DNA of 64,000 bases from Alphaproteobacteria bacterium. Its GTDB lineage: Bacteria > Pseudomonadota > Alphaproteobacteria > Thalassobaculales > Thalassobaculaceae. The DNA is taken from NCBI GenBank assembly GCA_024742605.1, contig JANSYC010000001.1, forward strand, positions 62,001-126,000, written 5' to 3'. Position 1 is the first letter of the stretch. Each line of letters opens with the position of its first letter. Shown in pieces: positions 16,684 through 22,325 of the stretch. A program made the position numbers and the translations under genes. The notes under the pieces were generated by a model that made no database searches, was not told where the DNA came from, and was given only the letters and a program-made list of their open reading frames with translations.

Positions 16684-17514
16684 GTGATGATGCGATCGAC
16701 ACGCCGCCAGATTCTCACCGCCGTTGCAGGCGCGTCCTGCTCGAGCCTTTTCGGCATCTCCGGTCTTTCGGCTTCGGCGCTTGGACGCCCGGTCTATCCA
16801 CCGGCGGATTTGGCCCCGGGACGCGTCAGTGTGGTTGCGGCCATCCGCTCGGGGGATGAAATCGACCTTGAGGACGGAGAACGGGTCCGCCTCGCCGGCA
16901 TCGAAGCACCGAAAATCGGCACCGAAAACTCGTCCCCGTGGCCGATGGCGGCACTCGCATCCGAAGCCTTGGGAGAACTGATCCTGGGGCGACATGTGAA
17001 GCTGTTGTACCCGGAGGACAAGGCAGACCGGTGGGGCCGAACTCTGGCGCATCTCAGGCTGGGGGAGGAAGGCGACTGGGTCCAGGGCCGCATGCTGATG
17101 GCAGGCATGGGCCGTGTACGAACCTTCCCACGTACCGCCAACGGCGCCCGCACCATGCTGGATCTCGAGCGGACCGCACGCGCGAACGCCCGCGGCATTT
17201 GGTCCGATCGATTCTACCGGATCCGCAATCCGGATGAGACCTGGGGAGATCTGGACAGTGTGCAGATCGTCGAGGGCCGGGTGGTCGACGCCGCGACCGT
17301 GAACGGCACAACCTATCTGAACTTCGGGCGCGATTGGCGCCGCGACTTTACGTTTCGGATCAAGACGGATCCCCGACGCGCCTTCCGGCGGGCCGGGATC
17401 CGTCTTGAGGATCTGACACGCCGCCGGGTACGGGGACGGGGCTGGGTTTTTCCTTTGAACGGGCCGATGATCGATCTGACACATCCCGAACAGCTCGAGG
17501 TGCTTGAGGAATGA
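16684..17514 (+). CDS. Exported SNase-like (thermonuclease-fold) protein, catalytic glutamate replaced
   Basis: 276 residues. An N-terminal signal with RR (MRSTRRQILTAVAGAS) suggests export. Residues about 45-195 are a staphylococcal-nuclease fold: SGDEIDL (D58, Asp21 of SNase), RLAGIEAPK (R69 as Arg35, E74 where Asp40 lies, K77 where the general base Glu43 lies), DRWGRTLAHL (R119, Arg87). The Glu43 to Lys change predicts weak or no nuclease activity. The remaining 80 residues form a second basic beta-rich region (TTYLNFGRDWRRDFTF). The start is uncertain between GTG 16684 and ATGs 16687/16690. Its end overlaps the M48 gene by four bases. Confidence 0.85.
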   Translation: MMMRSTRRQILTAVAGASCSSLFGISGLSASALGRPVYPPADLAPGRVSVVAAIRSGDEIDLEDGERVRLAGIEAPKIGTENSSPWPMAALASEALGELILGRHVKLLYPEDKADRWGRTLAHLRLGEEGDWVQGRMLMAGMGRVRTFPRTANGARTMLDLERTARANARGIWSDRFYRIRNPDETWGDLDSVQIVEGRVVDAATVNGTTYLNFGRDWRRDFTFRIKTDPRRAFRRAGIRLEDLTRRRVRGRGWVFPLNGPMIDLTHPEQLEVLEE

Positions 17515-18980
17515 TGCGGTTTGCCGCGTTCATCGGAGCAGGACCCATCCGGATGCTGGCAGCCGTCTTGGTTTCGGCTTGGGTAGCCGGCTGCGCAGTC
17601 AATCCGGCCACCGGTGACCGAAGCTTCGTGGGGTTTCTGCCACCCGAGGAAGAGGCCGCGTTTGGTGCCGAGAACCACCCGCTGATCCTTCGAAAATTCG
17701 GTGGAGCCTACGACGACCCCGACCTTGCGGCCTACCTGACTCAGGTCGGCGGCAATCTGGTTTCCGTCGCTGAACGGCCAGACCTGATCTTCACCTTCAC
17801 GGTTCTGGACAGCGAGACCGTCAACGCCTTCGCGATCCCCGGCGGCTACGTCTACGTGACCCGCGGCCTGCTCGCCCTGGCGGACAATGAAGCCGAATTG
17901 GCCAGCGTCCTGGGCCATGAGATCGGCCACATCACGGCCCTGCACGGCGCCCAACGGGTGAGCCGCGGCATGCTCGCAGGACTTGGAGCCGCGATTCTTG
18001 GCGCCGCGATCGGTCAGGATGCGGTGACCGACATGCTCGGAGCCGGAGCCTCCGCCCTATTGCAGAGCTACAGCCGGGAGCAGGAACTGGAAGCCGATAC
18101 CTTGGGGATTCGGTATCTGTCCCGGGCCGGCTACGACCCGCAAGCCTCCGCGACCCTGCTCGCGAAGCTCCGTGAGGAGTCCCTGCTCCGCGCGCAACTC
18201 TCAGGTGAGGGCGATCCGGACAGGTTCGACATTTTTGCGAGCCATCCACGGCCGATCGACCGACTGCAACGAGCCGCCGCACTCTCGGCGGCCGGAAATG
18301 GCAACATTTGGAGAGACCGATATCTGGAGCAGATCGATGGGCTGATCTACGGCAATTCCCCAAGACAGGGCTTCATTCGGGGGCGGTCGTTCCTGCATCC
18401 GGTGCTCGGAATCGGATTCACCGTTCCCGGCGGTTTTGTGCTGCAGAACCGGCCGGAAAATGTTCGGGCCGTGAACCAGGACAGGAGCGCGGGACTGATG
18501 TTCGACAGCATCCGGGTCCGGCCCGACATTTCGGCCGACCGGTATCTCAGCCGTATGTGGGCGCCATCCGCGAAATTCCTCAGCTTCGATCGCTTGCGCA
18601 TTGGAGAGCGGGAGGCGGCGACGGGACTCCTGGAGCAGCGAACCCCCAACGGGACGGCGGACCTCCGGCTCTTGGCGATCAAGGACGGTCCGCACCGGAT
18701 CTACCGGTTCGTTTTCATCAACCGATCCCGCGACCGCGACCGATATTCTCAGGCCTTCCGATCAACGGCCTTCAGCTTTCGGACCCTTTCCGAATCCGAC
18801 CTGGCCCAGCTGACGCCCGAACGGATCGTGATCATCAAGGTCAAACCGGGCGACACGATCGACAGCCTGGCAAGCCAGATGCCACCCGGCCCTCTGCGGG
18901 AGCAGCTGTTCAGAGTCTTGAACGGCCTGACCGACACGCCCGCCCCGACGGCCGGCACACGGCTCAAAATCATTCGCTAG
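17511..18980 (+). CDS. M48 family metalloprotease lipoprotein (BepA-like)
   Basis: 489 residues. A lipoprotein signal ends at AGC (AAVLVSAWVAGCAVNP). The M48 zinc site is HEIGH (LGHEIGHITALHG) with the third ligand in REQELEADTLG. Such periplasmic proteases act in outer-membrane protein quality control. The middle region is unassigned. The last 50 residues (VKPGDTIDSLASQM ... GTRLKIIR) resemble a LysM peptidoglycan-binding repeat, which would tether it near the wall. An ATGA overlap with the nuclease-fold gene indicates translational coupling. It is followed by a bidirectional terminator. Confidence 0.9.
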   Translation: MMRFAAFIGAGPIRMLAAVLVSAWVAGCAVNPATGDRSFVGFLPPEEEAAFGAENHPLILRKFGGAYDDPDLAAYLTQVGGNLVSVAERPDLIFTFTVLDSETVNAFAIPGGYVYVTRGLLALADNEAELASVLGHEIGHITALHGAQRVSRGMLAGLGAAILGAAIGQDAVTDMLGAGASALLQSYSREQELEADTLGIRYLSRAGYDPQASATLLAKLREESLLRAQLSGEGDPDRFDIFASHPRPIDRLQRAAALSAAGNGNIWRDRYLEQIDGLIYGNSPRQGFIRGRSFLHPVLGIGFTVPGGFVLQNRPENVRAVNQDRSAGLMFDSIRVRPDISADRYLSRMWAPSAKFLSFDRLRIGEREAATGLLEQRTPNGTADLRLLAIKDGPHRIYRFVFINRSRDRDRYSQAFRSTAFSFRTLSESDLAQLTPERIVIIKVKPGDTIDSLASQMPPGPLREQLFRVLNGLTDTPAPTAGTRLKIIR

Positions 18981-19098: not shown

Positions 19099-19983
19099 TC
19101 AGGCTTCCAGAAGAAGGTCTCGGGTGCTCTCAACCCTGTGGGACAAGCACTCCCGCAATTTCATGAGAGCGCGGTGCTCAAGCTGGCGCACCCGCTCCTT
19201 GGAGACGCCGAGCTCGCGTCCCAGTTCCTCGAGTGTCGCTCCGTCCTCGCGAAGCCGTCGCTGGTCGATGATCGTGCGCTCGCGCGGACTCAACTCTTCC
19301 AACGCCTCGGCGAGCCAGCGGGACCGGGTGCGGGAATCCCGCATACCGGTGACCACATCCTCCGGGTTCGGCCGCTCATCCGACAGGAACTCCTGCCATT
19401 CGTGCTCACCGGATTCGGAAACCGGCGCATTCAGGGACTGATCGTGGCCTGAAAGCCGCATCTCCATGGACTCGACGTCCTTGAGAGCCACGCCCAGTTC
19501 GACCGCAATGCTCGTCCGGCCCTCGTCCGACATCGGACCGTTTACGGCGTCACGGATCTTCGCGCGCAGCCGGCGCAGGTTGAAGAACAGGGATTTCTGG
19601 GACGCGGTCGTGCCGGTCCGGACGATGGACCAATTCCGCAGGATATAATCCTGAATCGCGGACCTGATCCACCACGCGGCGTAGGTCGAGAACCGCACCT
19701 CCCGTTCCGGCTCGAACCGGGCGGCAGCCTGCATCAGGCCCACGTTGCCCTCCTGCACCAGATCGCCCATCGGAAGTCCGTAGTTGCGAAACCGGCTGGC
19801 CGTGCTCACCACCAAACGAGTGTAGGACCGGACCAATTCATGCAGGGCGCGTTCGTCGTTCTCTTCGCGCCAGCGCCGGGCCAGTTCGAATTCATTATCC
19901 CGTTCCAGAAGAGGCTCTTTCATGGAAGCCTTGATGAACGCGACATTCGCTCGTTGGGTCTGCGGATCGTCGATATGTGCCAT
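19099..19983 (-). CDS. rpoH: RNA polymerase sigma-32-type factor RpoH
   Basis: 294 residues. Region 2 (LVQEGNVGLMQAAARFEPE...RFSTYAAWWIRSAIQDYI) and region 4 (LSPRERTIIDQRRL...LEELGRELGVSKERVRQLE) are intact. The RpoH box reads QKSLFFNLRRL, identifying the heat-shock/stress group. The ATG at 19983 has AGGGGG upstream; a longer frame is not needed. Alphaproteobacteria often have two rpoH genes, and neighbours carD and fdxA resemble the rpoH2 context, so this may be the oxidative-stress paralogue (inference). Confidence 0.92.
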   Translation of the reverse strand: MAHIDDPQTQRANVAFIKASMKEPLLERDNEFELARRWREENDERALHELVRSYTRLVVSTASRFRNYGLPMGDLVQEGNVGLMQAAARFEPEREVRFSTYAAWWIRSAIQDYILRNWSIVRTGTTASQKSLFFNLRRLRAKIRDAVNGPMSDEGRTSIAVELGVALKDVESMEMRLSGHDQSLNAPVSESGEHEWQEFLSDERPNPEDVVTGMRDSRTRSRWLAEALEELSPRERTIIDQRRLREDGATLEELGRELGVSKERVRQLEHRALMKLRECLSHRVESTRDLLLEA

Positions 19984-20135
19984 GACCAAGCCCCCTGCGC
20001 TGAAAATCAAGCCGATCTTTGCGATCGCTATTTGACCTTGTTACGCGTGCGGCTTTTGTCCGGATCACCGAATTAATAACAAATTTGGAAACAGTCTGTA
20101 GAAATCGGTCTCATTGGCCCTGTGTCAGAATTAAT

Positions 20136-20951
20136 TTACACATCAAGACGGTCGAGAATGTCACCCTTACTTGACACACACACGGCGGAGAGTGCGCCGT
20201 CACGACCGCATCCTTCGTCAATTGACAGCGTAATGCCGTTTTCGGTCCAGCCCGCATCCGCCGGATCAAAACCGCGAATGACCCGCTGGAATCCCTCATA
20301 GCCGGAGGCCGCTCGGGCAAAGCCGCCACTTTCCCACCAGAACGCGTCCTTCTGTTCTTCCAGTCGCCGTTCCGGGTCGAGTCCGCTGTGCACCATCAGG
20401 ACGCCGTCGGCCCCGGAGACTGCATAGCGGCGCAGCGACGTAAACCAGGCGTGATGGCCCGGTGCCGCCTGCATCGCCGCTTTCAGGCGCGCCGTCCAAC
20501 GGGTGAGCGCCACCAGACCTTCCTGGGCGGCGGCGAATCCCTGATTGGGATCCCCGCCATAGGCCCGCAAGGTCGGCTCAACGCCCCGATCCAACATCCA
20601 CTGGAGCAGGTCAGCCGGTTTCGGAGCAAAATGAATCTGCAGGAGCTTGTGCCACATCTCCTCCTGCCGGCCGCGCAGGAACACGATGTCATCCGGGAGG
20701 TACAGCGGCGGCAACGCCAGAATGGACCTCCGAAAGCGCAGAATCTCGTCGATGGTCGCGCGCACTTCGCCCAAGCCCATCACATTTCCGGTATATACGA
20801 GTCTGTCGCCGCTCTCGAACCGAGCCCCGATTTGATCGTGAAGGCTTTCAAGCCGCGCCACGTCCCCATGGATCGCGGCGACAACCCAGATACGGTCGCC
20901 GGTGCTGAGATCTACGTAACGATCATTTGAGGCGAGGCTCATGCGATCCAT
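20136..20951 (-). CDS. Degenerate calcineurin-like (PPP family) phosphoesterase, predicted inactive
   Basis: 271 residues. The layout is that of bacterial PPP phosphatases, but key residues are changed. GDxHG is A25-A26-I-H28-G29; GDxxDRG is G55-N56-V-M-G59-L60-G61; GNHE is G94-R95-Q96-E97. The later motif MVHSGLDPERRLEEQ (H188) is well conserved. Two metal-ligand aspartates and the Asn-His pair of GNHE are therefore gone, and hydrolysis is unlikely; a binding or scaffold role is more probable. It sits between carD and rpoH on the same strand. The ribosome site is poor; ATG 20942 is an alternative start. Confidence 0.8.
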   Translation of the reverse strand: MDRMSLASNDRYVDLSTGDRIWVVAAIHGDVARLESLHDQIGARFESGDRLVYTGNVMGLGEVRATIDEILRFRRSILALPPLYLPDDIVFLRGRQEEMWHKLLQIHFAPKPADLLQWMLDRGVEPTLRAYGGDPNQGFAAAQEGLVALTRWTARLKAAMQAAPGHHAWFTSLRRYAVSGADGVLMVHSGLDPERRLEEQKDAFWWESGGFARAASGYEGFQRVIRGFDPADAGWTENGITLSIDEGCGRDGALSAVCVSSKGDILDRLDV

Positions 20952-21019
20952 GACATGTTAGGAAGCATTCGGATGACGAGGGCGTCCCCCGGCAAGATCC
21001 GCAAAACGGAGTGTATGAC

Positions 21020-21047
21020 AAAGGGCGGCGCCGTGGCACCGCCCTGT
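21020..21047 (-). terminator. Terminator of carD
   Basis: AGGGCGG (21022-21028) pairs with CCGCCCT (21039-21045), extended inward by GCC/GGC around GT. Read leftward the stem is followed by TTGTC. It lies 31 bp after the carD stop. Confidence 0.65.
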
Positions 21048-21075: not shown

Positions 21076-21573
21076 TCAGGCGGCGTCCATGAGCTTCTCG
21101 AGCTTGGTGACCGCCGCGTCCTCGTCGATCTGCTCGATCTTGGCGAATTCACGGGCCAATCGGTCGATCGCAGCCTGGTACATCTGCCGTTCGCTGTAGG
21201 ACTGATCGCCCTGGTTGCTCGGCCGACGCAAGTCACGCACGACCTCGGCGATGGAGACAGGATCGCCGGAATTGATTTTGGCCTCGTATTCCTGAGCCCG
21301 ACGACTCCACATGGTGCGCCGGACACGCGCCCGACCCTTCAGCTTTGCGATCGCCGCATCCATTTGCTTGCGACTGCTCAGCCGGCGGAGGCCGCTGTTC
21401 TTCGCCTTCGCGACAGGAATGCGCAAGGTCATACGATCTTGTTCGAAGTCGATCACCAAAAGGTCGAGCTGAGTGCCCGCGATCTCCTGGCTTTCCGTCC
21501 CTTTAATCAGGCCGACACCATGAGTCGGGTAAACCACGTAGTCACCCGACTGGAATTCACTCTTTTTGGTCAT
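21076..21573 (-). CDS. carD: CarD/CdnL family transcription regulator
   Basis: 165 residues. The N-terminal RNA-polymerase-interacting Tudor-like domain is FQSGDYVVYPTHGVGLIKG...LLVIDFEQDRMTLRIPVAK, followed by a helical DNA-contacting domain. CdnL homologues bind the polymerase beta subunit and stabilise open complexes at rRNA and housekeeping promoters. ATG 21573 (MTKKSEF) fits the family start. It lies downstream of fdxA in the same direction, and has its own terminator. Confidence 0.93.
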   Translation of the reverse strand: MTKKSEFQSGDYVVYPTHGVGLIKGTESQEIAGTQLDLLVIDFEQDRMTLRIPVAKAKNSGLRRLSSRKQMDAAIAKLKGRARVRRTMWSRRAQEYEAKINSGDPVSIAEVVRDLRRPSNQGDQSYSERQMYQAAIDRLAREFAKIEQIDEDAAVTKLEKLMDAA

Positions 21574-21986
21574 TGGCGCTCTCTGTCTCCGTGCAATCCG
21601 AGGAGTCCGCACCCTGTCGACAGTGACAACGAGACCCGCCGAAGGTCATGCGACGGCCCCGCAGGGACACGACGCCGACCCTTCGGTCGATCTCGATCTG
21701 TCAATGTCCCAAGGTTTGGGGTTACGCTTTTTGCGACCCCACGCTTTGCGGGACCGGCGCTAAGTGTGGACGATTTCCAACAGCGCCGAGTTACAGAAGC
21801 CTACCATAAAAACCGCTAAAAAGGTAGATTTTCCGCTGGAATGACGGCTGACAAGAATGACATTGAGATATCAGGCTTTTATGACAGCATTCTTAATCTA
21901 GAATGACAATTGGTTGGGTTCTTGACGTCTCTGAGCGCCCTGCAGCATTGGATGATACGGACCCGACGGCTGGCAAAATCCAACGC
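21574..21986. other. 413-bp spacer between fdxA and carD with repeated GAATGAC boxes
   Basis: No credible gene. The fdxA-proximal part is AT-rich. GAATGAC occurs at 21839-21845, 21855-21861 and 21901-21907, and CATTCT (21888-21893) forms an inverted repeat with AGAATG (21900-21905) across TAATCT. These could be sites for a regulator of the leftward carD transcript. TTGACA on the minus strand (21699-21704) could be a -35, but no matching -10 follows. Confidence 0.4.
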
Positions 21987-22325
21987 CTAGCTTCCCTCCC
22001 CGGGATTGGCGGAAAAGTATTTATCGAATTTGCCGGTTTCGTCCTTGAACTTGTCGGCGTCCGCAGGCGCATCGATCTTCCGCGTGATATTCGGCCATTC
22101 CTCGGAATACTGCCGGTTCATCTTCAGCCATTTTTCAGCTTCGGCCTCGGTGTCCGGCAAAATGGCCTCTGGCGGGCACTCAGGCTCGCAGACCCCGCAA
22201 TCGATGCACTCGTCGGGATGAATGACGAGCATGTTCTCGCCTTCATAAAAGCAATCCACAGGGCAGACTTCGACGCAATCGGTGTACTTACACTTGATAC
22301 AGGCTTCGGTGACAATATAGGTCAT
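21987..22325 (-). CDS. fdxA: Seven-iron ferredoxin FdxA
   Basis: 112 residues, typical length. [29 protein letters not shown] is followed by [12 protein letters not shown], giving the cysteines for one [3Fe-4S] and one [4Fe-4S] cluster, and the alphaproteobacterial C-terminal extension ([11 protein letters not shown]). Cytoplasmic electron carrier. The ATG at 22325 has AGGGAG upstream. It is the first gene of the leftward fdxA-carD block. Confidence 0.95.

Follow-up and report, generated by a model that had tools for sequence, protein, structure and literature searches.

Gene content and distribution at the carD locus

The window, here meaning the whole 64,000-nucleotide stretch of DNA that was analysed, carries on its reverse strand the genes fdxA, carD and rpoH and, between the last two, an ORF whose product has the collinear motif layout, but not the catalytic residues, of a PPP phosphatase. 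The features to which the analysis refers are listed below from higher to lower coordinates, with counts relating to orthologous loci or to aligned orthologues.

21987..22325, reverse strand: fdxA, ferredoxin (NF045490); upstream in 70 of 88 loci
21076..21576, reverse strand: carD/cdnL (PF21095, PF02559), the upstream neighbour; linked at 106 of 117 loci
21019..21042, reverse strand: GC-rich terminator-like hairpin after carD, AGGGCGGTGCCACGGCGCCGCCCT-TTGTC; position read off the sequence and good to a few bases
20136..20951, reverse strand: ORF of the predicted PPP-fold pseudophosphatase, 271 aa; probable start Met4 at 20942
20865..20879, reverse strand: motif 1, AAIHG instead of GDxHG, residues 25-29; position 26 never D (0 of 121 orthologues)
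20769..20789, reverse strand: motif 2, GNVMGLG instead of GDxxDRG, residues 55-61; N56 in 110 and G59 in 120 of 121
20661..20672, reverse strand: motif 3, GRQE instead of GNHE, residues 94-97; Q96 in 111 and E97 in 121 of 121
20370..20390, reverse strand: HSGLDPE, residues 188-194; H188 in 47 of 121, this His not being family-conserved
20274..20276, reverse strand: Arg226, in place of the last metal-ligand His; R in 115 of 121, H in 5 of 6 canonical paralogues
20042..20067, reverse strand: ECF11 (RpoE/ChrR)-type promoter of rpoH, TGATCC-N16-CGTA; exact match to the consensus
19099..19983, reverse strand: rpoH, sigma-32 family, PRK07500/NF005693 type; linked at 44 of 86 loci
17511-18980 and 16684-17514, forward strand: M48 peptidase, convergent, and a thermonuclease-like gene, recurrent neighbours (M48 at 37 of 86 loci)

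The ORF is real and has exactly the bounds listed. Its translation start is probably Met4, and is placed there because the orthologue from the same genus (L002) lacks the first ATG. Neighbour counts refer to loci with enough flanking sequence. At 106 of these 117 loci carD lies upstream on the same strand, so that the family can be described as carD-linked, and the association with carD that the sequence-only reading had pointed out is a strong one. The 11 loci without a nearby carD are scattered over a quick tree and the very divergent members L110, L111, L117 and L118 still have the gene beside them, and the link is therefore probably ancestral. The association with rpoH, claimed in the same reading, is present but weaker, with rpoH downstream at 44 of 86 loci and missing from about half. 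In L111 and L118, both small genomes, the adjacent rpoH product shares only about 44% identity with the window RpoH, and in L111 the gene has the opposite orientation. An M48 peptidase gene and a thermonuclease-like gene, located past rpoH at 17511-18980 and 16684-17514 on the forward strand of the window, are also recurrent neighbours.

Matches to the family were obtained in 27 of 61 related genomes, with a clear family member in 25, and in a sample of 387 alphaproteobacterial genomes the family is present in 145, as tallied by hand from the match list at a threshold of 180 bits. This threshold falls within a wide gap, as family members score at least 180 bits and the next matches about 60-64 bits and below; the six lower-scoring matches inspected are all canonical PPP phosphatases. 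In a phylum-wide sample of 299 genomes, all nine that encode the family are Alphaproteobacteria. A scan of 84,980 species genomes returned 529 stretches encoding the family, the best 80 of which include the names Thalassobaculum, Nisaea, Azospirillum, Skermanella, Nitrospirillum, Inquilinus, Oceanibaculum, Elstera, Denitrobaculum and Micavibrio, together with a lone 'Anaerolineae' bin that is probably contamination. The family is retained even in genomes of 1.2 Mb, and plasmid records contain no match to it.

Fold and active-site residues

When compared alone with Pfam and NCBIfam, the window protein has no match, and it does not reach the curated cut-off of Metallophos (PF00149) or related models. 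Membership in a Pfam or NCBIfam family hidden by divergence was rejected, as family members gave only weak matches (best E 0.006 for 25 members against Pfam), most commonly to ApaH and Metallophos_3. Profile-profile comparison by hhalign, however, aligned the family with six canonical bacterial PPP paralogues over 227 columns (99.7%, E 1.7e-26). An AlphaFold2 model generated from the 25-sequence alignment (pLDDT 92.3, pTM 0.90) has as its top Foldseek matches in the PDB PP5, the ApaH-like 2qjc, lambda phosphatase, RLPH2, PP1 and PP2A, with E values for the PPP matches down to about 1e-9 and TM about 0.55. Profile comparison and predicted fold both show that a PPP-type fold is retained, as had been proposed from the letters of the DNA. 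Searched against the sequences of solved structures, the family profile matched 2qjc (1.3e-5), a bacterial Pnkp phosphatase domain, RLPH2 and ApaH, and a viral fold library returned ordinary PPP phosphatases, none of them closer. Overall fold and collinear sequence both place the protein among the PPP-type metallophosphoesterases and, on the strength of the fold and of the profile matches, its closest kin are bacterial-type PPPs, including Ap4A hydrolases. In a quick tree the family and the canonical PPPs are the two sides of one fully supported branch. The genome of the window encodes an additional, canonical PPP elsewhere, with the motifs GDLIDRG, GNHD, HAG and HGH.

The residues AAIHG, GNVMGLG, GRQE and HSGLDPE reported in the sequence-only reading are all present in the window protein, but its statement that HSGLDPE is kept applies to this protein and does not extend to the family, in which position 188 is occupied by His in 47 of 121 sequences, by Asn in 33 and by Ser in 28. 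These 121 are non-redundant orthologues with less than 95% identity. In every one of them the position of the motif-1 Asp is occupied by A, S, C, T or P; the motif-2 Asp position, where not Asn, is D in 9 and G in 2, and the Asp position of DRG is G in all but one. The Asn and His of GNHE are retained in 3 and 1 of the 121, respectively, Arg226 takes the place of the second late His of canonical PPPs (VVHGH), and H28 is retained in 95. Family members hold 0 to 3 of eight canonical active-site residues, as compared with 7-8 in the six canonical paralogues, and the combination of GDxHG, GDxxDRG, GNHE and late His that characterizes an active PPP phosphatase is absent. Ranked by conservation among the 271 columns, N56 is 11th, G59 32nd, R226 36th and Q96 55th, so that with E97 they lie in the upper fifth or so, whereas the position of the phosphate-binding Arg is 246th and among the most variable. 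As read from this alignment, several former catalytic sites have settled into a new, fixed state (Asn56, Gly59, Gln96 and Arg226, with Glu97 invariant) and do not drift freely. Orthologues with intact metal ligands, which would argue against the conserved inactive family that had been suggested, were sought among the 121 members and none was found. A phosphatase fold is therefore combined with a loss of catalytic residues that is itself conserved, the hallmark of a pseudophosphatase, and the window gene very probably encodes a non-hydrolytic PPP pseudoenzyme.

Transcription signals and gene linkage

Terminator-like hairpins are present in 52 of 109 gaps between carD and the pseudophosphatase gene, as against 0.6 expected, and an exact TGATCC-N16-CGTA precedes rpoH in 33 of 66 orthologous gaps but in 0 of 1,320 shuffles. 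Sigma factors of the RpoE/ChrR type (ECF11) have this sequence as their published consensus (PMC5507510, PMC5036791), and in Rhodobacter they drive rpoHII under singlet oxygen (PMC6852236). ChrR is encoded in the genome of the window, with a score above the curated cut-off, and the genome has nine ECF11-type sites, with none in the reversed control. By its promoter, the window rpoH probably encodes a singlet-oxygen RpoHII-type factor. As in the R. sphaeroides cascade from RpoE/ChrR to RpoHII (PMC6852236), there is a neighbouring rpoH with a matching promoter and a ChrR in the same genome. The parallel bears, however, on rpoH and not on the pseudophosphatase gene: the gap between it and carD has an ECF11 site in 0 of 110 cases. 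Clear EcfG, RpoH or sigma-70 patterns were not found in the carD-gene gaps either, and a shared stress promoter was rejected; a loose TTG-N-CTAT pattern occurs in 11 of 109, with 1.9 expected.

Because hairpins follow carD and rpoH has its own ECF11-type promoter, carD, the pseudophosphatase gene and rpoH are probably separate transcription units. An operon of the three would have neither terminator nor promoter between its genes, and predicted elements of both types are present, so the single co-transcribed stress block envisaged in the sequence-only reading was not upheld. With an ECF11 promoter before rpoH and none after carD, the stress link belongs to rpoH, and for the pseudophosphatase it is positional only. 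Where genes are not co-transcribed, such gene order does no more than hint at a shared function. Pairwise distances between orthologues give partial correlations of 0.41-0.47 with CarD and RpoH and of 0.02-0.14 with FdxA and the M48 peptidase; these values are confounded by evolutionary rate and gene length, and the co-tracking with CarD and RpoH is a weak hint of a joint function.

Possible function and relation to known proteins

The reading that we favour, with a probability of roughly 0.48, is that a catalytically dead, metal-free PPP fold has taken on a new role as a binding module linked to CarD and RNA polymerase. The remodelled pocket (a small residue at position 26, Asn56, Gly59, Gln96-Glu97 and Arg226), or the surface adjoining it, would bind a partner or ligand without hydrolysis. 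Arg226 perhaps brings a positive charge to the place of the former metal, and this charge might engage a phosphate or the side chain of an acidic residue. The outcome of binding would then feed into CarD/RNA-polymerase-dependent transcription, alongside rpoH but under a different promoter. Both the binding and the transcriptional role are proposed because the remade pocket is conserved and because of the gene order. For a pseudoenzyme at this position, a role with CarD and RNA polymerase has slightly less than an even chance, and one exerted through RpoH in particular is unlikely. It is also unlikely that the family is a class-wide alphaproteobacterial regulator, in which the dead PPP/ApaH-like fold would detect a phosphorylated small molecule, for instance a dinucleoside polyphosphate, leave it intact and signal its presence to CarD or RNA polymerase.

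Few enzymes are as conserved as the PPP phosphatases. With canonical bacterial PPPs and symmetrical Ap4A hydrolases (the PphA/PrpE/ApaH group; PDB 2qjc, 1g5b and 5vjv) the family has the fold and collinear motifs in common, but it has lost the metal and phosphate ligands, has an extra conserved KLLQxxFA segment past motif 3 and has the family-specific residues W22, W152 and W205, which are missing from its canonical relatives. Inactive calcineurin-like folds serve as structural subunits in Vps29 and in the B subunits of replicative DNA polymerases; use of a metallophosphoesterase fold as a binding scaffold would be shared with these, although they belong to other branches of the superfamily and are eukaryotic or archaeal. 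PfPPP8 of the malaria parasite was termed in 2023 the first PPP pseudophosphatase to be characterised (PMC10317984). It also has a PPP domain with a changed motif 2, GNLINRG as compared with GNxxGxG in the carD-linked family, but it is a eukaryotic (apicomplexan) protein of the basal complex in which a single motif is damaged, and some of its homologues lack obvious mutations. The carD-linked family is, in contrast, bacterial, with each motif lost in each member, and a common origin is not claimed. A search of the open-access literature found neither bacterial PPP pseudophosphatases nor a carD-linked phosphoesterase, and PPP pseudophosphatases were described there only from protozoan parasites. 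This bacterial family therefore appears to be new, and the suggestion that an inactive family at this locus would be new biology seems justified to that extent. Dead in all its members, it is ancient and under selection, has no name in Pfam or NCBIfam, and adjoins the gene for a global regulator of RNA polymerase; it would be a tractable case of conversion of a metalloenzyme fold into a binding protein and is possibly a missing piece in alphaproteobacterial transcription control.

A tentative alternative to the CarD-associated binding module, and one with some substance, is that the protein is non-catalytic but functions outside transcription, for example as a scaffold or by competing with the active PPP paralogue, with its position beside carD and rpoH simply inherited. 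This is consistent with the separate transcription units, with the presence of a canonical PPP paralogue in the genome, with fdxA being nearly as conserved a neighbour (70 of 88) without an obvious common function, and with the relocation of some orthologues, among them those of L104 and L136, which now adjoin ffh and dapF; but it does not explain the survival of the carD linkage in the very divergent members, and the distance correlations favour CarD and RpoH. The two relocated orthologues (L104, 5965-6780; L136, 4017-4817) share a new site that lacks carD, where they are transcribed divergently from an ffh-like gene and have dapF-like and radical-SAM methylthiotransferase-like genes close by, all named by eye. 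A shared theme was not found among the neighbours of relocated copies.

A new enzyme, in which the same fold has lost its original metal site and gained a different catalytic site, is distinctly improbable. Invariant or nearly invariant polar residues from which an active site could be built are available (E97, E98, D49, D88, D202, H38, H166, R93, R226, Q200), but they are scattered along the chain, and the protein matches no known enzyme family. A phosphatase still active with altered ligands, for example with one metal held by other residues, is very improbable: the retained H28 and, in principle, N56 could coordinate a metal, but the positions of Asp26, Asp59, Asn95, His96 and His226 are nearly all replaced and that of the phosphate Arg is one of the most variable in the alignment. 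The dN/dS ratio is 0.076 for the pair closest to the window (a sister species), its median over 61 pairs is 0.13, and both values point to purifying selection; the 25-sequence alignment has 41 invariant columns. Decay of a former PPP phosphatase gene into a pseudogene, which would account for the breakage of every catalytic motif and for an internal TAG codon in one orthologue, is ruled out by this selection, by the invariant columns, by reading frames that are open in nearly all genomes and by the lack of intact-ligand orthologues. The TAG codon, in G326:C24:144131-144925, stems from a sequencing error or, alternatively, from recent loss.
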